Positions 24,327 through 42,415 of a stretch of DNA of 52,333 nucleotides are shown here, in pieces. The stretch is from a virus: positions 1 to 52,333 of the IMG/VR virus record IMGVR_UViG_3300043446_000626, one strand, 5' to 3'. The position numbers and the translations under genes were made by a program. The first letter of the stretch is position 1. Every line of letters begins with the position of its first letter. The notes under the pieces are model-generated. The model made no database searches, was not told the origin of the DNA, and worked only from the letters and a program-made list of their open reading frames with translations.

Positions 24327-25094
24327 TTATCTCTCCAATCCACTCTTGGCGTACCAGTAGTTCAGGAGAGACTCAAACATGAGCCATCCCCGCTTCAGGT
24401 CTTCTTGTGACCACTCCCTCACTACGACCAGTCCCGGCTCTGTGACCGAGACAAAGACGTTCGCGCATCGAGCATCAGGCAAATCCAACCCAATGCGGTA
24501 GGAAGCCAGTTGCATGAGGTGCTCGTCGAATCCCTGTGCCTTCTCCATTTGGTCACTTGTGAACTCCTTCGTCTTAAAATCGATCACAACGCCATTCCCG
24601 TCGCGGGAATGAAGGTCTACTTTTCCCCCAAATCCGAGGGGGTGACCAAAAGACTTCTCCGTACACCACTCCAGATCGCCAAAAACCTTGACGATCTGAT
24701 CTTCTGTTCCCAGTACGGCTCCAGAAAACTTCGAGGTGACATGACGGGTCTCGAAGAAGGATTCAAGGGCCGCATGGACCTCTGAACCCCTCTCCGCGGC
24801 CATCTTGGCCTGTTCCTTCGAGTCGGACTGAATACGGCTGATGAAGGACTCTTCCGTCTCCTCAGGGGCCCTGGGAAGGGTCAGTGAGGCCAACATCATC
24901 TGCTGCAGTTTCCAAGCCTCCAGGCCCGGAGAAGCCGCACATTTGATGATGGTGGTCACCGAAGGGATCAGGTTCAACTTCCGCGCATCCCGTAGGGTGG
25001 TTGGTCGCTGATACCCGTCCTTGTTCTCGACTGTGTACTTGGGCTCACCCGCCTTGGTGTACCAGTGCTGACTTTCTGATGCTCTGACGATCAT
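24327..25094 (-). CDS. PD-(D/E)XK exonuclease (RecB/Cas4-like)
   Basis: A 255-aa nuclease of the PD-(D/E)XK fold. Motifs in order: AERGSEVHAALE (about residues 100-111), GFGGKVDLHS with Asp160, VVIDFKTKE with Asp172 and Lys174, and a Gln-x-x-x-Tyr-like motif in HLMQLASYRIG. Such phage enzymes process DNA ends for recombination, often with an annealing or SSB protein; here an SSB-like gene lies just upstream. Starts behind TGGAG. It is a likely partner of RusA in the rightward operon. Confidence 0.85.
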   Translation of the reverse strand: MIVRASESQHWYTKAGEPKYTVENKDGYQRPTTLRDARKLNLIPSVTTIIKCAASPGLEAWKLQQMMLASLTLPRAPEETEESFISRIQSDSKEQAKMAAERGSEVHAALESFFETRHVTSKFSGAVLGTEDQIVKVFGDLEWCTEKSFGHPLGFGGKVDLHSRDGNGVVIDFKTKEFTSDQMEKAQGFDEHLMQLASYRIGLDLPDARCANVFVSVTEPGLVVVREWSQEDLKRGWLMFESLLNYWYAKSGLER

Positions 25095-35579: not shown

Positions 35580-36143
35580 ATGCCACGGAAAGCCGCCAAA
35601 ACCGAGCCTTCAAAAGCCCCTGACCAAGGGGTAGATACCACCCAGGCCGCGGAAAAGCCCAGAAAGAAGACTGGGCGCCCTACAGACTACGACGAAGAGA
35701 TCGCTTCCGCTATATGCGTCCGTATCGCCAACGGACAGCCTCTAAGGCAAATATGCATGGAAGAAGGGATGCCAGTCCAATCGACGGTGTATGTTTGGTT
35801 GACTCGCTTCCCTGAGTTCGCGGAGATGTACACACGCGCCCGCGAAGATCAGGCCGATACTCTGGCTGACGAGATTCAGGCCATCGCGGACGAAACCCCG
35901 GAGATGAACCCGATCGTGGACAAGAACGGGGAACTGATCCGGATCGAGATGCACTCGGCCTACATCCAATGGCAGAAGAACCGGATCGACGCCCGCAAGT
36001 GGGTTGCGGCCAAACTGAAGCCCCGCAAGTATGGGGACAAGGTCCAGTTGTCCGGGGACGCCGAGAACCCGCTGAAGGTGGAAGCCGATGTGACCATCTT
36101 CGATACCGTCCTGAAGGGCATAGAGCAGTCCCGCCGTGGATGA
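35580..36143 (+). CDS. terS: Terminase small subunit
   Basis: A 187-aa protein. A basic, low-complexity N-terminus is followed by GRPTDYDEEIASAICVRIA, then GQPLRQICMEEGMP and STVYVWLTRFPEFAEMYTRA, the helix-turn-helix and oligomerisation pattern of Sf6/phage-type small terminases. EIQAIADETPEMNPIVD and RKWVAAKLKPRKYGDKV complete the family signature. It recognises the packaging site and regulates TerL. It overlaps terL by 8 bp. Confidence 0.88.
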   Translation: MPRKAAKTEPSKAPDQGVDTTQAAEKPRKKTGRPTDYDEEIASAICVRIANGQPLRQICMEEGMPVQSTVYVWLTRFPEFAEMYTRAREDQADTLADEIQAIADETPEMNPIVDKNGELIRIEMHSAYIQWQKNRIDARKWVAAKLKPRKYGDKVQLSGDAENPLKVEADVTIFDTVLKGIEQSRRG

Positions 36144-38469
36144 ACTTGTCGCCGTCCTGAAGGACGAGGAGATCCGGGAGAAGTTCAAGCGCCTCCCGGC
36201 TGACAGACAAGCCGCCTTTGCCTGGAGGGCGGGATGGCTCACCAAGGCTCACAAGCACCAGATCCTGCCCGACGGGGACTGGTGGAGCATCTGGCTCCTC
36301 CTGGCCGGTCGTGGAGCCGGGAAGACCAGGACGGCTGCGGAGCAGATAGGTTGGTGGGCCTGGGAGCAGCCTGGAACCCGGTGGCTCGTTGCTGCTCCGA
36401 CCTCCGCGGACGTTCGGGCTACCTGTTTTGAGGGGGATTCTGGGCTGATTGCCGTGATCCCTCCTATTCTCATCGCCGACTACAACCGGGCGTACCACGA
36501 GATCAAACTCACCAACGGCTCACTTATTAAGGGCATCCCTGCGTCTGAGCCTGAGCGCTTTCGTGGTCCTCAATTCCACGGCGGGTGGCTAGATGAACTT
36601 GCGGCTTGGGACTATCTGCAAGAGGCTTGGGATCAGATCATGTTCGGCGTGCGCCTGGGCAAGCACACCCGCATTCTGGCCACGACGACTCCTAAGCCCA
36701 AGGACTTGATCATCGACCTCATCGGCCGGGATGGTGACGATGTACAGGTCACGACAGCGAGCACTTACTCCAACCTGGACAACCTTGCTCCGTCCTTTCA
36801 GAAGCAGATCCTGCAGTACGAGGGAACGAAACTCGGCCGCCAGGAGATCTACGCTGAGATCATTGATCCTGAGGAGGGGGGTATCGTCTCCCGTGACTGG
36901 TTCCGCCTCTGGCCTGCAGACAAGCCCATCCCTAAACTGGACTTCGTCGTCCAGTCCTACGACTGCGCCTTCACTGAGAAGGCCCAGAACGATCCGACGG
37001 CAGCCATCACCTTCGGGGTCTTCCGCCAGGAGGATGGCCCTGGAAGCGTCCTGATCATCGACTGTTGGCAGGACCGCCTGCAGTATCCCGACCTCCGGCC
37101 GAAGGTCATCGATGAGTACGAGACCGTCTTCGGAGAGGGCAAGGACAAGAAGCGGGTGGATCTGGTCCTGGTCGAGGACAAGGCCGCGGGCATTTCTCTG
37201 ATACAAGACCTGCAGAGAGCACACATCCCTGTCAGGGCCTACAACCCAGGCAGGGCGGACAAGGTCCAACGCCTGTCCATCGTGGCCAACATCATCCGAG
37301 CCGGAAGAGTCTGGGTGCCCGAGAGCAGCGTCAGGAAGGGCTACGTCCGTGACTGGGCGGAAGGGATGGTCTCTCAGGTCTGCTCCTTCCCCAACACCGA
37401 CCACGACGACTTCTGCGTGGCCGAGGGCTCGATGGTGCTGATGGCCAATGGCGATTTGAAACCGATTGAGTCTGTGCGGGTAGGCGACTTTGTCCAGACC
37501 CCTAACGGCGCTCGTCGCGTCACCGCCTTCCACGACAACGGCGTCAAGGAGGTTTGGCAAGTTCAGGCTGACGGTCGCCTGCTACTGGCAACCGGCAACC
37601 ACGAGGTCTTCACGGACAGTGGGTGGATGCGTGTTGATAGTTTGAGACAAGCAGTCCATAATCTTCTGATCATTGATCAGGAGGAAATATGCCGTTCCAA
37701 AAGAAGCCGGGGGTGGTCGTTGAGGTCATTGAGTTCAATGGCCGTAAGTACCGGCGCTATCCTGAAAGCCCAAATCCGGCGCATCGTCGGTACTTTGGTC
37801 GGGCAGGGCATCGGCTGCACCGGGATGTCTGGGAGTTCCATCACGGGCCGATTCCCGATGGGATGCACGTTCACCACATTGATGGCAACACCGCGAACAA
37901 CGACATCAGCAATCTTGAGTGCGTCACTCGTGATGCCCATTGGGACGAACATCGCGCAGAACATTCAAGGCGCGGGAAGGGCAAGGAACAGTTGGAGCAC
38001 TTGGAACATATCCGATCCAAGGCCTCTGAGTGGCACAAGTCAGAAGAAGGCCGAGCGTGGCATCGAGAGCACGCAAAGCGCAGTCTCTCCAAAGTATGGG
38101 GCAAGCCTCGGGAGTTTCCTGAACTCCGCCTTAAATGCGTTTGGTGCGGCGCGGACATGGTTGGCAAGATCGCTAGGAAGAAGTTCTGCGGACCAACCTG
38201 TCAAAACGCTGAGTCCAAGTTTCGCCTCGGCAAGTCTTGTACAGAACACCCATACCACGCGGCGCGTGTTCGACCTGACAGTGGAGGGTGAGCACTGCTA
38301 CTTTGCCAACGGCATCCTGGTCCACAACTGCGATGCCTTGTCTCAAGCGCTCCGATACTTGCGGGACGCAGGTTTCTTGAACATTGATCCAGAACCTGAC
38401 GATGGCCCTGACGAGGATGATTACGCCGACGCGGGGATGAGAAAGCGGGAGAATCCATATGCGTCTTGA
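36136..38469 (+). CDS. terL: Terminase large subunit interrupted by an intein
   Basis: The 777-aa reading frame is a 472-aa packaging ATPase/nuclease plus a 305-aa intein. Walker A is GRGAGKT (58-64), Walker B is GGWLDELAAW with Asp153-Glu154, and the nuclease part includes QSYDCAFTEK and LVLVEDKAAG. The intein (427-731) splits the conserved motif TDHDDF/CDALSQAL, which carries nuclease Asp residues, so unspliced protein should lack nuclease activity. Splicing residues are intact: Cys427 at the start, TGNH in block B, VHN at the end and Cys732 as the +1 residue. Residues 518-708 hold no recognisable domain because the same DNA encodes an HNH enzyme in another frame. Confidence 0.92.
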   Translation: MDELVAVLKDEEIREKFKRLPADRQAAFAWRAGWLTKAHKHQILPDGDWWSIWLLLAGRGAGKTRTAAEQIGWWAWEQPGTRWLVAAPTSADVRATCFEGDSGLIAVIPPILIADYNRAYHEIKLTNGSLIKGIPASEPERFRGPQFHGGWLDELAAWDYLQEAWDQIMFGVRLGKHTRILATTTPKPKDLIIDLIGRDGDDVQVTTASTYSNLDNLAPSFQKQILQYEGTKLGRQEIYAEIIDPEEGGIVSRDWFRLWPADKPIPKLDFVVQSYDCAFTEKAQNDPTAAITFGVFRQEDGPGSVLIIDCWQDRLQYPDLRPKVIDEYETVFGEGKDKKRVDLVLVEDKAAGISLIQDLQRAHIPVRAYNPGRADKVQRLSIVANIIRAGRVWVPESSVRKGYVRDWAEGMVSQVCSFPNTDHDDFCVAEGSMVLMANGDLKPIESVRVGDFVQTPNGARRVTAFHDNGVKEVWQVQADGRLLLATGNHEVFTDSGWMRVDSLRQAVHNLLIIDQEEICRSKRSRGWSLRSLSSMAVSTGAILKAQIRRIVGTLVGQGIGCTGMSGSSITGRFPMGCTFTTLMATPRTTTSAILSASLVMPIGTNIAQNIQGAGRARNSWSTWNISDPRPLSGTSQKKAERGIESTQSAVSPKYGASLGSFLNSALNAFGAARTWLARSLGRSSADQPVKTLSPSFASASLVQNTHTTRRVFDLTVEGEHCYFANGILVHNCDALSQALRYLRDAGFLNIDPEPDDGPDEDDYADAGMRKRENPYAS
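37414..38328 (+). mobile_element. TerL intein, mini-intein type in frame, with out-of-frame nested HNH gene
   Basis: The N-terminal splicing domain covers residues 427 to about 515 of the TerL frame (CVAEGSMVLMANGDLKPIE, RVGDFVQTPNG, LLLATGNHEVFTDSGW). The C-terminal block is RVFDLTVEGEHCYFANG-ILVHN (709-731). Between them the TerL frame shows only Ser/Thr/Arg/Ala/Gly-rich text without domain features, yet no stop codon in about 190 codons. The HNH gene at 37689-38291 fills exactly this interval. Remove it and a splicing domain of some 115-130 residues remains, about mini-intein size. Confidence 0.9.
37689..38291 (+). CDS. HNH homing endonuclease nested out of frame inside the TerL intein
   Basis: A 200-aa protein in the +2 frame relative to terL. 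CAGGAGGAAAT immediately before its ATG is the best ribosome binding site in this region. HNH_3-type core: YRRYPESPNPAHRRYFG, LHRDVWEFHHGPIPDG, then HVHHIDGNTANNDISNLEC (His62, His63, Asn71, Asn75). A zinc ribbon follows (KCVWCGAD, KKFCGPTCQNA: Cys150, Cys153, Cys167, Cys171). The last 20 residues overlap the intein C-terminal splicing block and look less conserved. It would cut intein-less terL and promote spread of the intein. Being separate from the intein chain in translation is highly unusual. Confidence 0.9.
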   Translation: MPFQKKPGVVVEVIEFNGRKYRRYPESPNPAHRRYFGRAGHRLHRDVWEFHHGPIPDGMHVHHIDGNTANNDISNLECVTRDAHWDEHRAEHSRRGKGKEQLEHLEHIRSKASEWHKSEEGRAWHREHAKRSLSKVWGKPREFPELRLKCVWCGADMVGKIARKKFCGPTCQNAESKFRLGKSCTEHPYHAARVRPDSGG

Positions 38470-38683
38470 AGTTATGGTCGAGCCTTTGGACTCTAAGGAA
38501 CTCCCGGCTTACGAAGTCACAGTCAAGGTGACCCAGTGCCAGAACAGGTTTGAGATCATCGCCAAGCCTGGGGCAGAGATTGATTCCTGGCAGGTGCAGG
38601 CTTTACTGGCAAACTGGCTGAGATCCCGCGTAGACTCAGAAAAGACTGGTGGGCATAATCCATCATCTTCCGAGCGAGGGTAA
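38459..38683 (+). CDS. Small protein between terL and the polyvalent gene
   Basis: A 74-aa protein whose ATG lies inside the last codons of terL. Beta-rich (MRLEVMVEPL, AYEVTVKVTQCQNRFEIIA) with a helical segment (WQVQALLANWLRSRV). No recognised family. Position suggests a minor head or packaging role. Confidence 0.55.
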   Translation: MRLEVMVEPLDSKELPAYEVTVKVTQCQNRFEIIAKPGAEIDSWQVQALLANWLRSRVDSEKTGGHNPSSSERG

Positions 38684-38686
38684 GCC

Positions 38687-41600
38687 ATGGCCGACTTTGG
38701 GCGACAACTGGCAGATTTGTTGTATGGGAACCAACAGCCTCAAGAGCGTCAAAAGATCGCCCGACTCCTAGAGTCTGACCGTTTGCGCCGTTTGGCCGGG
38801 ATTGGCGAGGCTGCTACGACCTTCGGCACCGGACTGGCCGCATCTGTCCCTGCGGGGCTTGCGGGGCTTTCCCAACTGATTCCCACCCGCGGTCGTGCGC
38901 CTGATGTCAACAAGGCCGCCCAGAGGGTTGAGGACGTTCAGGGTGCTCTGACCTACCTTCCCCGCACCGAGACGGGTCAGCGGGTTCTTGAAAAGGTTGC
39001 AGGGCCTCTGGAAATGCTCGGGGCTCCTGCTGAGTTCTTGGGCGAGAAGACGCTGCAGTACACCGGCTCCCCGGCTGCTGCCACTGCCGCAAACGTCCTT
39101 CTGGACCCGGTGAACTTCATCGGGATGCCTGGGAGTGGAAAGGCCGTGAAGGCCGCAGGAAGGGCCGCCATGGCCACTCCTCGTGTCGCTGCTGAGATGG
39201 TCGGTGACATCCTGGCCCCGAAGTCACGCTTTGAAAGCCAACGGGGCGCCATCAAAATGAAGGGCGGCAACTGGTTGGCCGGTGAGGTGGAGAAGTCGAT
39301 TGAGCCTCTTCGTGCCGGTAGCCGAGCAAGACCTCCTGAGCAGCAGTTGGCGGAGATGAGGGCGCAGTACACGCCTGAGGCTCTTGAAACCTTGCCTGAA
39401 GCACTGCGTGGCGGTGTTGATACTGCTTTTGAGGTTCTTGGTGAGCAATCCGCGCTCAATAACTGGATCGACAAGAAACTCACCCGCTACATCAAGAACG
39501 AGATGGCCACGCCGGAAGACCCGGTGCGGAAGTTGGCCGAGCAGGGCATCACGCATATGCAGGGCCTTGACCAGAACGTTGATTACGTCGGCTTCGGTTT
39601 GAAGAGAAGGCGCAGTGAGGCGGGGCTTCCTGAGGGTGGTTTGGGTGAATCTCAACTTGCCAAGAACTGGGAAGTAAAGGCTGACCAAGCAATCAATATC
39701 GAAAAGGCGGGCACCCTTAGCGATCCCAACCAATGGTTTGCTGAATCCGCGCCCGATCTTTCAAGACAACTTGAGACCAACCCTTGGCTTTCAAAACTCC
39801 CGCCAGAGACGCCGGTCTATGAGACTGCGGCGACTGCAGAGTATTTCCCTCGGATGCTTGGCTTCGACCACCTGATCGACGAACTGAGGAACTCCATTGA
39901 TGCCGCGTCCGACCTTCCTGCCCGTCTGCGGTGGAAGCCCGAGGATCTGGAGAAGGTCACGATCGAACAGGCCGTCAAGCGCGTCCACGACATCAACGAG
40001 TACCGCGCAGCGAAGAAGGCGGAGGCAAACGAGGCTCTGGCCCGCAACCCTGCGACGGTGGACTACAAGACCTACGAGACTGTTCCCGGTGGCACTGAGC
40101 CCAACAAGATGGGCTTGGCGTGGAAGGAGATCAAGGCTCCTGGGGAACTTCCAGAAGGTTTGACGGAAACGGTAAGCAAGAAGCACGCACGGAACCGTGC
40201 CGGTGAGTTGGTTGATGATCCTCGCTACAAGTCACTTGAGGACGCTCTCAAGTACGAAGGCGAAGTGATGGGTCACTGCGTCGGCGGCTACTGCAACGAT
40301 GTCCTGTCGGGCGAGACAAAAATCTACTCCCTGCGGGACAAGAAGGGCGAGCCTCATGTCACGATTGAGGTTGCTCCTCCCAAAAAATACTCCTACGAAG
40401 ATGTTTTGGATATGGACAAGGAGTACATATCTTCTCTTCGGCGCAACGGAGGCGAGGACAGCGTTTCTGATTATGTGAATGCGCGTCTAGATGAACTAGA
40501 CAGCGAGCCTTCGCAAATCATCCAGATCAAAGGCAAAGGTAACCGCGCCCCCAAGGAAGAGTATCTGCCGTTCGTGCAGGACTTTGTCCGCAGCGGCAAC
40601 TGGTCACGAGTTGGAGATATTCAGAACACGGGTATGAGGGCTGCTTCATCGGTGTTCAACGAGAACGAACTGAAGAGATTGCGCGATCTTGGAGAGACAA
40701 ACATTCCGGCCATCCTGTCGGGTGCAGATATTCAGCGCCTGCACAACCTCATCACGCCTGAAGGTAAGCGCCTGATATATGACGCTCGTGGCAACATCAT
40801 TGGCGATGAAGCCCGGAGAGGCTACGCAGACGGTGGAGAAGTCACCATCCCTGACATGACGGATGGCGGCAAGGTCATTGATGGCGGGGAGTTCAAGAAG
40901 GGCGGGAAGGTCCGCATCTCCGACAATCCTGACACGATGCGCCTGGAGTTGCAGGCAGGCGGGGCCGTGAAGGCTGCAGCGAAAGCGGCCGCAAAGGTTG
41001 CCAAGGAAGAGAAACTCTCCGTCCCCTACGACATCCCTCGTGCGCCTGCCAAGACGAAGGAAGAGATCCGGCCCATCGCTCAACGCATGGCCGAGCAGAT
41101 GACGGGTGAGTTCGTCCGCCCTGACCCGAAGGTCTCGAAGAACCCTGCAGGCAAGACCTATCAGCAGTTCCTCATGGAGCGTGAACTGGAAGGGCGTCAC
41201 CAGTACCGCCCAACCAAGGAAGTGCAGGAGCCTTCGGTCGCTGACATTGAGAAGCAAAAGGGCATGGTGAAGATGGGCGTCTCTGGCGACACCACCATGG
41301 CCGATGTAGAGTTGCTCCGCGCAGGCCCGTACCAATTGGGAGATCCGGCTCCCCTGCACGGAGGCCCGCGGTTCCCGTTGGGTGGTGAAGGCTCCTGGGC
41401 ATCCAACAACCCGATTGCAGCGAATGTGCAGCGCCGGGTGGGTGAGATATCTCAGTTCTTCGACGCGCCGGTCTTAGGTCAATACATGAGCATGGGTCCG
41501 TCTGGCTCTATGTTCGCGCAGCATCTGGCCGATGCCAACCTGCAGGCCATCGACCTGTCGAAGATGAGCAAGCGGCAGATCGAGCAGTTCAACAAGTTGA

Positions 41601-42415
41601 TCCGCGCCGGAGATGAGAAGTCTGGCCCCCGGCCTACGTTCCCTGGCATTCAGGACAAGGAAGAAGCCTACCTGTGGATGGCGTTCGATCCGAAGTTGCG
41701 GATTCACTTCAACAGCCTGATGCAGAAGCCTACGGTGACCGAGGCGCTGAACCTGCCTGATGGCCGAATCATCCTCGACGCCGTCACCGAGCCGGAGTTG
41801 CGGAACAAGGAGATCATGACCTCTGGTCTGTCTCAGTTCCAGTTCGATCCGAGCATCCGGCCGGAAGATCTCTCGCTTTCGATGCACCCGACCTACACGC
41901 ACCTGATCCCGATGAAGCAGGGCGCTCCGGTCACCCGTACTCGTTACCCGACCCCGGCAGAACTTGAGTTCTCCGATGTGGCCAACTTCATCCGCCAGAA
42001 CTACCCCGCCAAGGAGTTCACCCGCGTAATGCAGACCGGCAGCCCTCGCCAGTTGATCGATCAGCAAGCGATTGATGAGATCAAGATGTTCGAGGAGTTC
42101 ATGAAGCAGTACACCGGCAAGAAGAAGGGCGGGGCGGTGAAGATGCAGGCGGGTGGCGCCATCAAGGCTGCCGCAAAGGCCGTCAAGCCTACTGCCGAGC
42201 AAGCCGCACGTTTGGCTGCTTTGCGCGAGAAGATAGTTCCCCGCGGTGAACTGTCCAAGAAGATCATGGAAGAGAACCTCGACAAGCCTCTGAGCGAGAT
42301 CGAAGAGGGCGGCCTGACCAAGGCCCTGGAGGCTCTGCCCAAGAAAAAGGGCGGCAAGGTGAAGTTCACCGACAACCTCGACGCCATGCGACTGGCTGTC
42401 CAGAAGAGAAAGTAA
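38687..42415 (+). CDS. Giant polyvalent protein with a PcfJ-like domain
   Basis: A 1242-aa multidomain protein. The N-terminus is membrane-like in parts (TTFGTGLAASVPAGLAGL). Around residues 526-565, GHCVGGYCNDVLSGETKIYSL (in parts MGHCVGGY, SGETKIYSLRD) and HVTIEVAPP match the PcfJ-like core found in conjugative elements and phage polyvalent proteins; IIQIKGKGNRAPKEEYLPF follows. Two segments end in similar text, KVRISDNPDTMRL near 745 and KVKFTDNLDAMRL at the C-terminus, suggesting duplication or fusion. Several KKGG motifs recur (FKKGGKV, KKKGGAV, KKKGGKV). Polyvalent proteins are often injected with DNA to counter host defence; that role is an inference here. Confidence 0.72.
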   Translation: MADFGRQLADLLYGNQQPQERQKIARLLESDRLRRLAGIGEAATTFGTGLAASVPAGLAGLSQLIPTRGRAPDVNKAAQRVEDVQGALTYLPRTETGQRVLEKVAGPLEMLGAPAEFLGEKTLQYTGSPAAATAANVLLDPVNFIGMPGSGKAVKAAGRAAMATPRVAAEMVGDILAPKSRFESQRGAIKMKGGNWLAGEVEKSIEPLRAGSRARPPEQQLAEMRAQYTPEALETLPEALRGGVDTAFEVLGEQSALNNWIDKKLTRYIKNEMATPEDPVRKLAEQGITHMQGLDQNVDYVGFGLKRRRSEAGLPEGGLGESQLAKNWEVKADQAINIEKAGTLSDPNQWFAESAPDLSRQLETNPWLSKLPPETPVYETAATAEYFPRMLGFDHLIDELRNSIDAASDLPARLRWKPEDLEKVTIEQAVKRVHDINEYRAAKKAEANEALARNPATVDYKTYETVPGGTEPNKMGLAWKEIKAPGELPEGLTETVSKKHARNRAGELVDDPRYKSLEDALKYEGEVMGHCVGGYCNDVLSGETKIYSLRDKKGEPHVTIEVAPPKKYSYEDVLDMDKEYISSLRRNGGEDSVSDYVNARLDELDSEPSQIIQIKGKGNRAPKEEYLPFVQDFVRSGNWSRVGDIQNTGMRAASSVFNENELKRLRDLGETNIPAILSGADIQRLHNLITPEGKRLIYDARGNIIGDEARRGYADGGEVTIPDMTDGGKVIDGGEFKKGGKVRISDNPDTMRLELQAGGAVKAAAKAAAKVAKEEKLSVPYDIPRAPAKTKEEIRPIAQRMAEQMTGEFVRPDPKVSKNPAGKTYQQFLMERELEGRHQYRPTKEVQEPSVADIEKQKGMVKMGVSGDTTMADVELLRAGPYQLGDPAPLHGGPRFPLGGEGSWASNNPIAANVQRRVGEISQFFDAPVLGQYMSMGPSGSMFAQHLADANLQAIDLSKMSKRQIEQFNKLIRAGDEKSGPRPTFPGIQDKEEAYLWMAFDPKLRIHFNSLMQKPTVTEALNLPDGRIILDAVTEPELRNKEIMTSGLSQFQFDPSIRPEDLSLSMHPTYTHLIPMKQGAPVTRTRYPTPAELEFSDVANFIRQNYPAKEFTRVMQTGSPRQLIDQQAIDEIKMFEEFMKQYTGKKKGGAVKMQAGGAIKAAAKAVKPTAEQAARLAALREKIVPRGELSKKIMEENLDKPLSEIEEGGLTKALEALPKKKGGKVKFTDNLDAMRLAVQKRK

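Follow-up and report, generated by a model that had tools for sequence, protein, structure and literature searches.

The window considered here, meaning the whole stretch of DNA that was analysed, comprises 52,333 nucleotides of the viral record IMGVR_UViG_3300043446_000626 from IMG/VR. It carries terL, the gene for the terminase large subunit, which is read as a single continuous open reading frame (ORF) and matches the Pfam families Terminase_6N (E=4e-24) and Terminase_6C (E=1e-6). Within terL lies an intein and, within the intein but in another reading frame, a gene for an HNH protein. The features of the region are the following:

35580-36143: terminase small subunit gene, just 5' of terL (phrog_1482, E=4e-45)
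36136-38469, + strand: terL, 777 aa with the intein included
37414-38328, + strand: intein, 305 aa, from Cys1 to Asn305 (Asn codon 38326-38328), followed by Cys+1
37414-37698, + strand: N-terminal splicing half with blocks A and B (TGNH), predicted Hint fold, pLDDT 90-98 over residues 1-90 (AlphaFold)
37679-37684, + strand: AGGAGG, Shine-Dalgarno-like, with a 4-nt spacer to the HNH start codon
37689-38291, + strand: nested HNH_3 endonuclease gene, 200 aa with a C-terminal Cys4 zinc ribbon, in the +2 (equal to -1) frame relative to terL
37711-38184, + strand: middle of the intein in the terL frame, a predicted disordered linker (pLDDT <50)
38206-38328, + strand: C-terminal splicing half with blocks F and G (...VEGEHCYFANGILVHN), pLDDT 96-98, TIGR01443
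38329-38469, + strand: C-extein, beginning with the +1 Cys required for splicing (Val in the aligned intein-less relative)

Two further genes were noted in the window. On the strand opposite to terL, positions 24327-25094 (-) encode an exonuclease or CRISPR-associated-like protein (phrog_298, phrog_1706). Shortly 3' of terL, a long ORF (38687-42415, 1242 aa) weakly matches unknown phrogs and contains, in its C-terminal half, repeats resembling KKGGxVK / MQAGGAIKAAAK.

In the terL frame, the sequence across the insert reads TDHDDF/CVAEGSMV...LATGNHEVF...FDLTVEGEHCYFANGILVHN/CDALSQ (slashes mark the boundaries), and the insertion point falls within the TerL nuclease motif HDDF/CDALSQALRYL. A first-pass annotation, made from the sequence alone, had described intact splicing motifs here, and both its coordinates and its description (C1, TGNH, VHN and the +1 Cys) proved exact. 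Moreover, this frame matches Intein_splicing in Pfam (36.4 bits against a cut-off of 35.8) and the intein C-term model TIGR01443 in NCBIfam (E=3e-7). Two rows from annotated records were left out of the input to the structure predictions. In the AlphaFold model of the intein, residues 1-90 and about 265-305 reach a pLDDT of at least 90, residues 100-257 (about 158) are disordered, and the Hint fold is predicted for both halves. Foldseek matched this model to the Mtu RecA and Ssp DnaB (mini-)inteins (E about 1e-6), with a TM-score of up to 0.84 for Mtu RecA. Judged by its motifs and predicted fold, the insert is a complete intein of the class 1 type, and its presumed removal would leave a TerL of 472 aa.

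The endonuclease lies elsewhere than in the intein's own frame. No nuclease family of Pfam or NCBIfam was matched in the terL frame, in agreement with the earlier description, and HNH_3 (PF13392, E=6e-18) was confined to ORF 37689-38291 in the +2 frame, which the same annotation had recognized as a complete HNH protein with a zinc ribbon. The HNH profile also matches I-HmuI (1u3e) at the level of sequence profiles (E=2e-4). The HNH model is predicted with a mean pLDDT of 90, and while its Foldseek match to 1u3e is weak (E=0.11), the HMM evidence is clear. PF13392 is present in 47/47 aligned HNH members, in which H62, H63, N71, N75, H84 and four Cys are invariant. A chance open frame is ruled out as an explanation of this ORF by its domain, its fold and the selection acting on it (omega, given below).

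Homologous loci were sought with two alignments, one of the HNH (against IMG/VR and GTDB genomes) and one of the intein itself (against IMG/VR). The first four homologues from phage records, namely Tetrasphaera phage TJE1, Acinetobacter phage Highwayman, Rhodobacteraceae phage LS06-2018-MD07 and a faecal phage, all carry a TerL intein with the HNH offset by +2 and an open terL frame, and their TerLs are very dissimilar. At the nested locus, the annotations of TJE1, Highwayman and LS06-2018-MD07 show terL alone. Searching viral metagenomes for the same layout had been proposed in the first-pass annotation; at 170 of the 174 loci where an N-half is paired with a C-half, the HNH lies at +2 beneath an unbroken terL frame. 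In the remaining four, the frame is +2 and interrupted (L097, L103), +1 and open (L086) or +1 and interrupted (L100). In-frame HNH homologues, which would have spoken against the nested reading, occur at 0 of these 174 loci, a sample in which inteins with other middles may be under-represented, as the intein-anchored scan was ranked by similarity to the whole intein of the window.

The 170 loci represent 135 distinct inteins and 76 TerL clusters (50% identity). C1 is Cys in 134/135 of the distinct inteins, whereas the terminal Asn and a Cys or Ser at +1 are found in 135/135. Among 56 representative hosts, Terminase_6N was matched in 34 and Terminase_3 in 23 (counts that may overlap), and HNH_3 in the host frame of none. 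The median distance from the start of the intein to the nested HNH is 266 nt, and that from the end of the HNH to the end of the intein is 55 nt, which places the gene exactly between blocks B and F. Insertion is mostly in the TerL nuclease motif (DH../C..DA.RY), offset by 0-7 residues. A few inteins occupy other TerL sites, among them those of L163 and L182, which adjoin the Asp-Glu motif in the ATPase domain. Since the layout recurs in more than 100 diverse phages, it represents a real, conserved mobile-element design and no accident.

Several loci of the survey have peculiarities of their own. L086 (2968-3513) combines a nested HNH in the +1 frame with an open host frame and a different-looking TerL intein, apparently an independent choice of frame. 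In L175 (1467-2055), and also in L206-L208, one TerL contains two inteins; the intein at the N-terminal ATPase (GKT) motif harbours, in the +1 frame, a nested gene for a NUMOD4+HNH_3 protein, apparently a second, independent case of out-of-frame nesting. Another TerL with two inteins is that of L057, whose additional intein lies in the N-terminal part, at the GKS motif of the ATPase, and is probably the source of the sole LAGLIDADG_3 match among the 56 hosts. NUMOD4-HNH relatives were considered as a second nested family and rejected, as in 76/80 intein halves and an open second frame are both absent; nesting is thus no general by-product of HNH codons.

The openness of the terL frame is maintained against expectation. 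Across the 135 distinct loci, no terL-frame stop was observed, compared with 333 expected under synonymous shuffling. Per locus, 2.5 stops are expected when codons are shuffled among synonymous positions and 4.0 when the gene is recoded with its TerL's own codon usage. The stop-free terL frame beneath the HNH, pointed out in the first-pass annotation, persists in 6% of trials when the window's HNH is recoded in the latter way. In most free-standing HNH relatives, the corresponding frame is interrupted by 2-15 stops. L107, the sole exception with 0 stops, possesses the C half of an intein and is truncated by a contig edge, so that it is probably nested too. The third frame contains about 19-20 stops per locus, against about 2.5 in +2. 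The +2 frame is probably favoured in this way, with some 20 stops per gene imposed by HNH codons in the third frame and the few in +2 being removable by synonymous change. Additionally, the nucleotide A directly after the HNH start codon occurs at 0/134 loci, because ATGA would create TGA in the terL frame.

Constraint at synonymous sites in both frames, an analysis also suggested at the outset, was estimated from 16 independent sequence pairs. In the HNH frame, a dNN/dNS (omega) of 0.195 (CI 0.15-0.23) indicates purifying selection. For the terL frame beneath it, dNS/dSS is 0.84 with a CI of 0.69-1.12, which includes 1, and no amino-acid selection on the linker was detected. The ratio dNN/dSN (0.60) was set aside because these classes sit at different HNH codon positions. 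Apparently, the terL-frame linker is essentially unconstrained except for staying free of stops.

How the HNH protein is made can be approached through the sequences around its start. An in-frame ATG is present just 5' of the HNH domain at 85% of loci, compared with 11% of control windows, and Shine-Dalgarno-like matches of at least 5 nt precede 39% of nested HNH starts, compared with 4% of control windows; a recognisable match is absent at about 37% of the starts. These enrichments make internal initiation at the HNH start codon the best reading and support the original proposal of a separately translated nested gene. It could instead be supposed that ribosomes shift by -1 inside the intein, giving an IntN-HNH fusion and no free HNH protein. 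Nearly all loci do have the HNH in the -1 frame, and slippery heptamers just before it are found in 14% of the relevant windows versus 4.5% of controls, so frameshifting may take place in some members. However, such a heptamer is absent from the window and from 86% of loci, the ATG and Shine-Dalgarno enrichments speak for initiation, and the frame is +1 in L086 and in the second intein of L175. Frameshifting is, on balance, a very unlikely route to the HNH protein.

Evidence of mobility comes from comparisons among loci. For instance, in L136 and L155 the TerL exteins are 20% identical, while the HNH proteins share 72% and the splicing blocks 87%; L147/L184 and L059/L074 are similar cases. By the measure of these identities, intein and HNH have moved together horizontally in some close pairs. 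Divergence of the HNH and of the splicing halves shows a weak rank correlation (0.12), so general co-divergence is unsupported and the claim is limited to such pairs, without extension to long-term pairing. Empty sites are also found. The TerL of MW202545, 70% identical, reads HDEFVDCISQ where the predicted spliced product of the window reads HDDFCDALSQ, and the TerLs of L026, L080, L101 and L106 are further intein-less alleles at the same site.

The same comparisons bear on the idea that the HNH protein assists the terminase in packaging, as a cofactor of the HK97 gp74 type, and is no homing enzyme. In most loci that could be placed the HNH is in or beside terL, and HNH proteins associated with packaging have been described (Kala 2014, as cited in PMC10448857 and PMC12613952). 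Nevertheless, the protein matches HNH_3 and I-HmuI, sits in an intein, travels with it between distant TerLs, and is missing with the rest of the insert from the TerL of MW202545. A role as cofactor is very improbable, somewhat more so than frameshifting, and the homing endonuclease remains the preferred assignment.

Relatives of the HNH gene also exist outside inteins. Free-standing copies lie directly 3' of an intein-less terL in L026/L027, L080, L101 and L106 and adjoin terL in L096 and L110, where the insertion site is only partly aligned; in Acinetobacter phage BP10, a copy lies just 5' of terS. L097, L100 and L103 have an interrupted terL frame, in which TerL-N:IntN, HNH and IntC:TerL-C form three overlapping ORFs, with IntC having its own start codon, preceded by a clear Shine-Dalgarno sequence in L097 and L103 and a weaker one in L100. 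These three, the only ones of the 174 loci with the terL-frame stops that had been named as a possible objection, look like split inteins of the same family and are treated as candidates. L234, with a NUMOD4-HNH at +1 between intein halves and an interrupted host frame, is a possible further split intein. The HNH lineage is thus found in three states, namely beside terL, flanked by the halves of a split intein, and nested.

A split intein has to be considered for the window as well, with IntN and IntC made separately and spliced in trans around the intervening HNH gene. L097, L100 and L103, with their stops and start codons before IntC, give this arrangement a precedent. In the window and in 169 other loci, however, the terL frame has been preserved without stops, although a split intein could tolerate them, and trans-splicing there is even less probable than a cofactor role. 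The remaining explanation, a sequencing or assembly error that displaced an ordinary in-frame HNH domain, would need one indel pair in a single genome, and it is refuted to the point of a negligible probability by the recurrence of the same frame in 135 distinct inteins, on many contigs and in isolates including Tetrasphaera phage TJE1 and Acinetobacter phage Highwayman, with host-frame stops absent where hundreds are expected.

The overprinted TerL intein is real, conserved and open to a mechanistic interpretation. Very probably, it is an intein that sits in the terL nuclease motif, splices in cis and is mobile, with a homing endonuclease encoded by a separate, overprinted gene. The HNH would be encoded in the -1/+2 frame at the place where inteins normally have an endonuclease domain. 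Ribosomes translating terL would cross this region and produce a roughly 160-200-residue unstructured linker joining the Hint halves, after which the intein would excise itself and TerL would be ligated. Other ribosomes would begin at the internal start codon, behind AGGAGG in this case, and make the HNH protein, which would then cut terL alleles lacking the intein and thereby let repair insert a copy of the entire cassette. As had been proposed initially, such a layout would decouple nuclease dosage from terminase dosage.

With less assurance, though more probably than not, these loci make up a widespread class of overprinted inteins that always have their homing endonuclease as a gene of its own in another frame, its lineage being free-standing, placed between split halves or nested. 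If so, the merging of endonuclease genes with splicing elements would be directly observable in a natural series of adjacent, split and nested genes, and inteins could become mobile without domain fusion. About 600 bases do double duty in this design: in one frame they encode an expendable protein linker, in the other a nuclease that is under selection. The family supplies many testable pairs for TerL splicing and homing. Additionally, it illustrates how annotation of only the longest ORF hides nested genes, as in TJE1, Highwayman and LS06-2018-MD07.

Textbook mobile inteins have their endonuclease fused in frame. The present element resembles large class 1 inteins of the PI-SceI type in that Hint halves flank the endonuclease at the equivalent position, in an active-site motif of an essential gene, and in being mobile. 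In mycobacteriophage TerL inteins tested for cleavage, the endonuclease is an in-frame LAGLIDADG domain and the sites lie in the TerL ATPase domain (PMC5050341). Unlike both, the element described here encodes its endonuclease as a separate gene in another frame, its intein polypeptide having just a predicted disordered linker at that position, and it is inserted mostly in the nuclease domain of TerL. Group I introns with an endonuclease ORF, such as that of I-HmuI, share independent translation inside a self-removing element and a similar HNH type. They differ in that removal is predicted here at the protein level from a continuous terL frame; a group I intron was rejected, as no Rfam match to a catalytic intron RNA was found over 36000-38700 at E up to 0.5.

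Fractured genes, reportedly described by Dassa in 2009, are said to combine split inteins with a free endonuclease between the halves. The likeness is an endonuclease that forms an independent ORF between intein halves; the difference is that the host gene of the window is unsplit, while L097, L100 and L103 do resemble the fractured type. A 2025 preprint by Gosselin, Arsenault and Gogarten ('Actinobacteriophage Inteins ... Non-Canonical Architecture', doi 10.1101/2025.01.02.630785), from the group that also published PMC11855218, is said to deal with actinobacteriophages only. It may overlap with the present findings, as its title and its citation in PMC11855218 for overlapping reading frames suggest related architectures. 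The closest case is ShiLan (2025), an out-of-frame HNH insertion without splicing domains and without a detectable ribosome-binding site, which its authors conclude stays in the protein (PMC11855218). The initial view that no well-described group has this layout may stand for complete inteins, as searches among openly available papers yielded nothing beyond ShiLan on out-of-frame endonucleases in inteins, but it has to be qualified for out-of-frame HNH insertions lacking splicing domains; with the actinophage preprint, priority is uncertain. In both ShiLan and the window, the HNH gene is out of frame within an insertion through which the host frame continues without stops. Mobile inteins as such are already known, and the part that appears new is that a complete intein, with both Hint halves, encloses the out-of-frame HNH gene.
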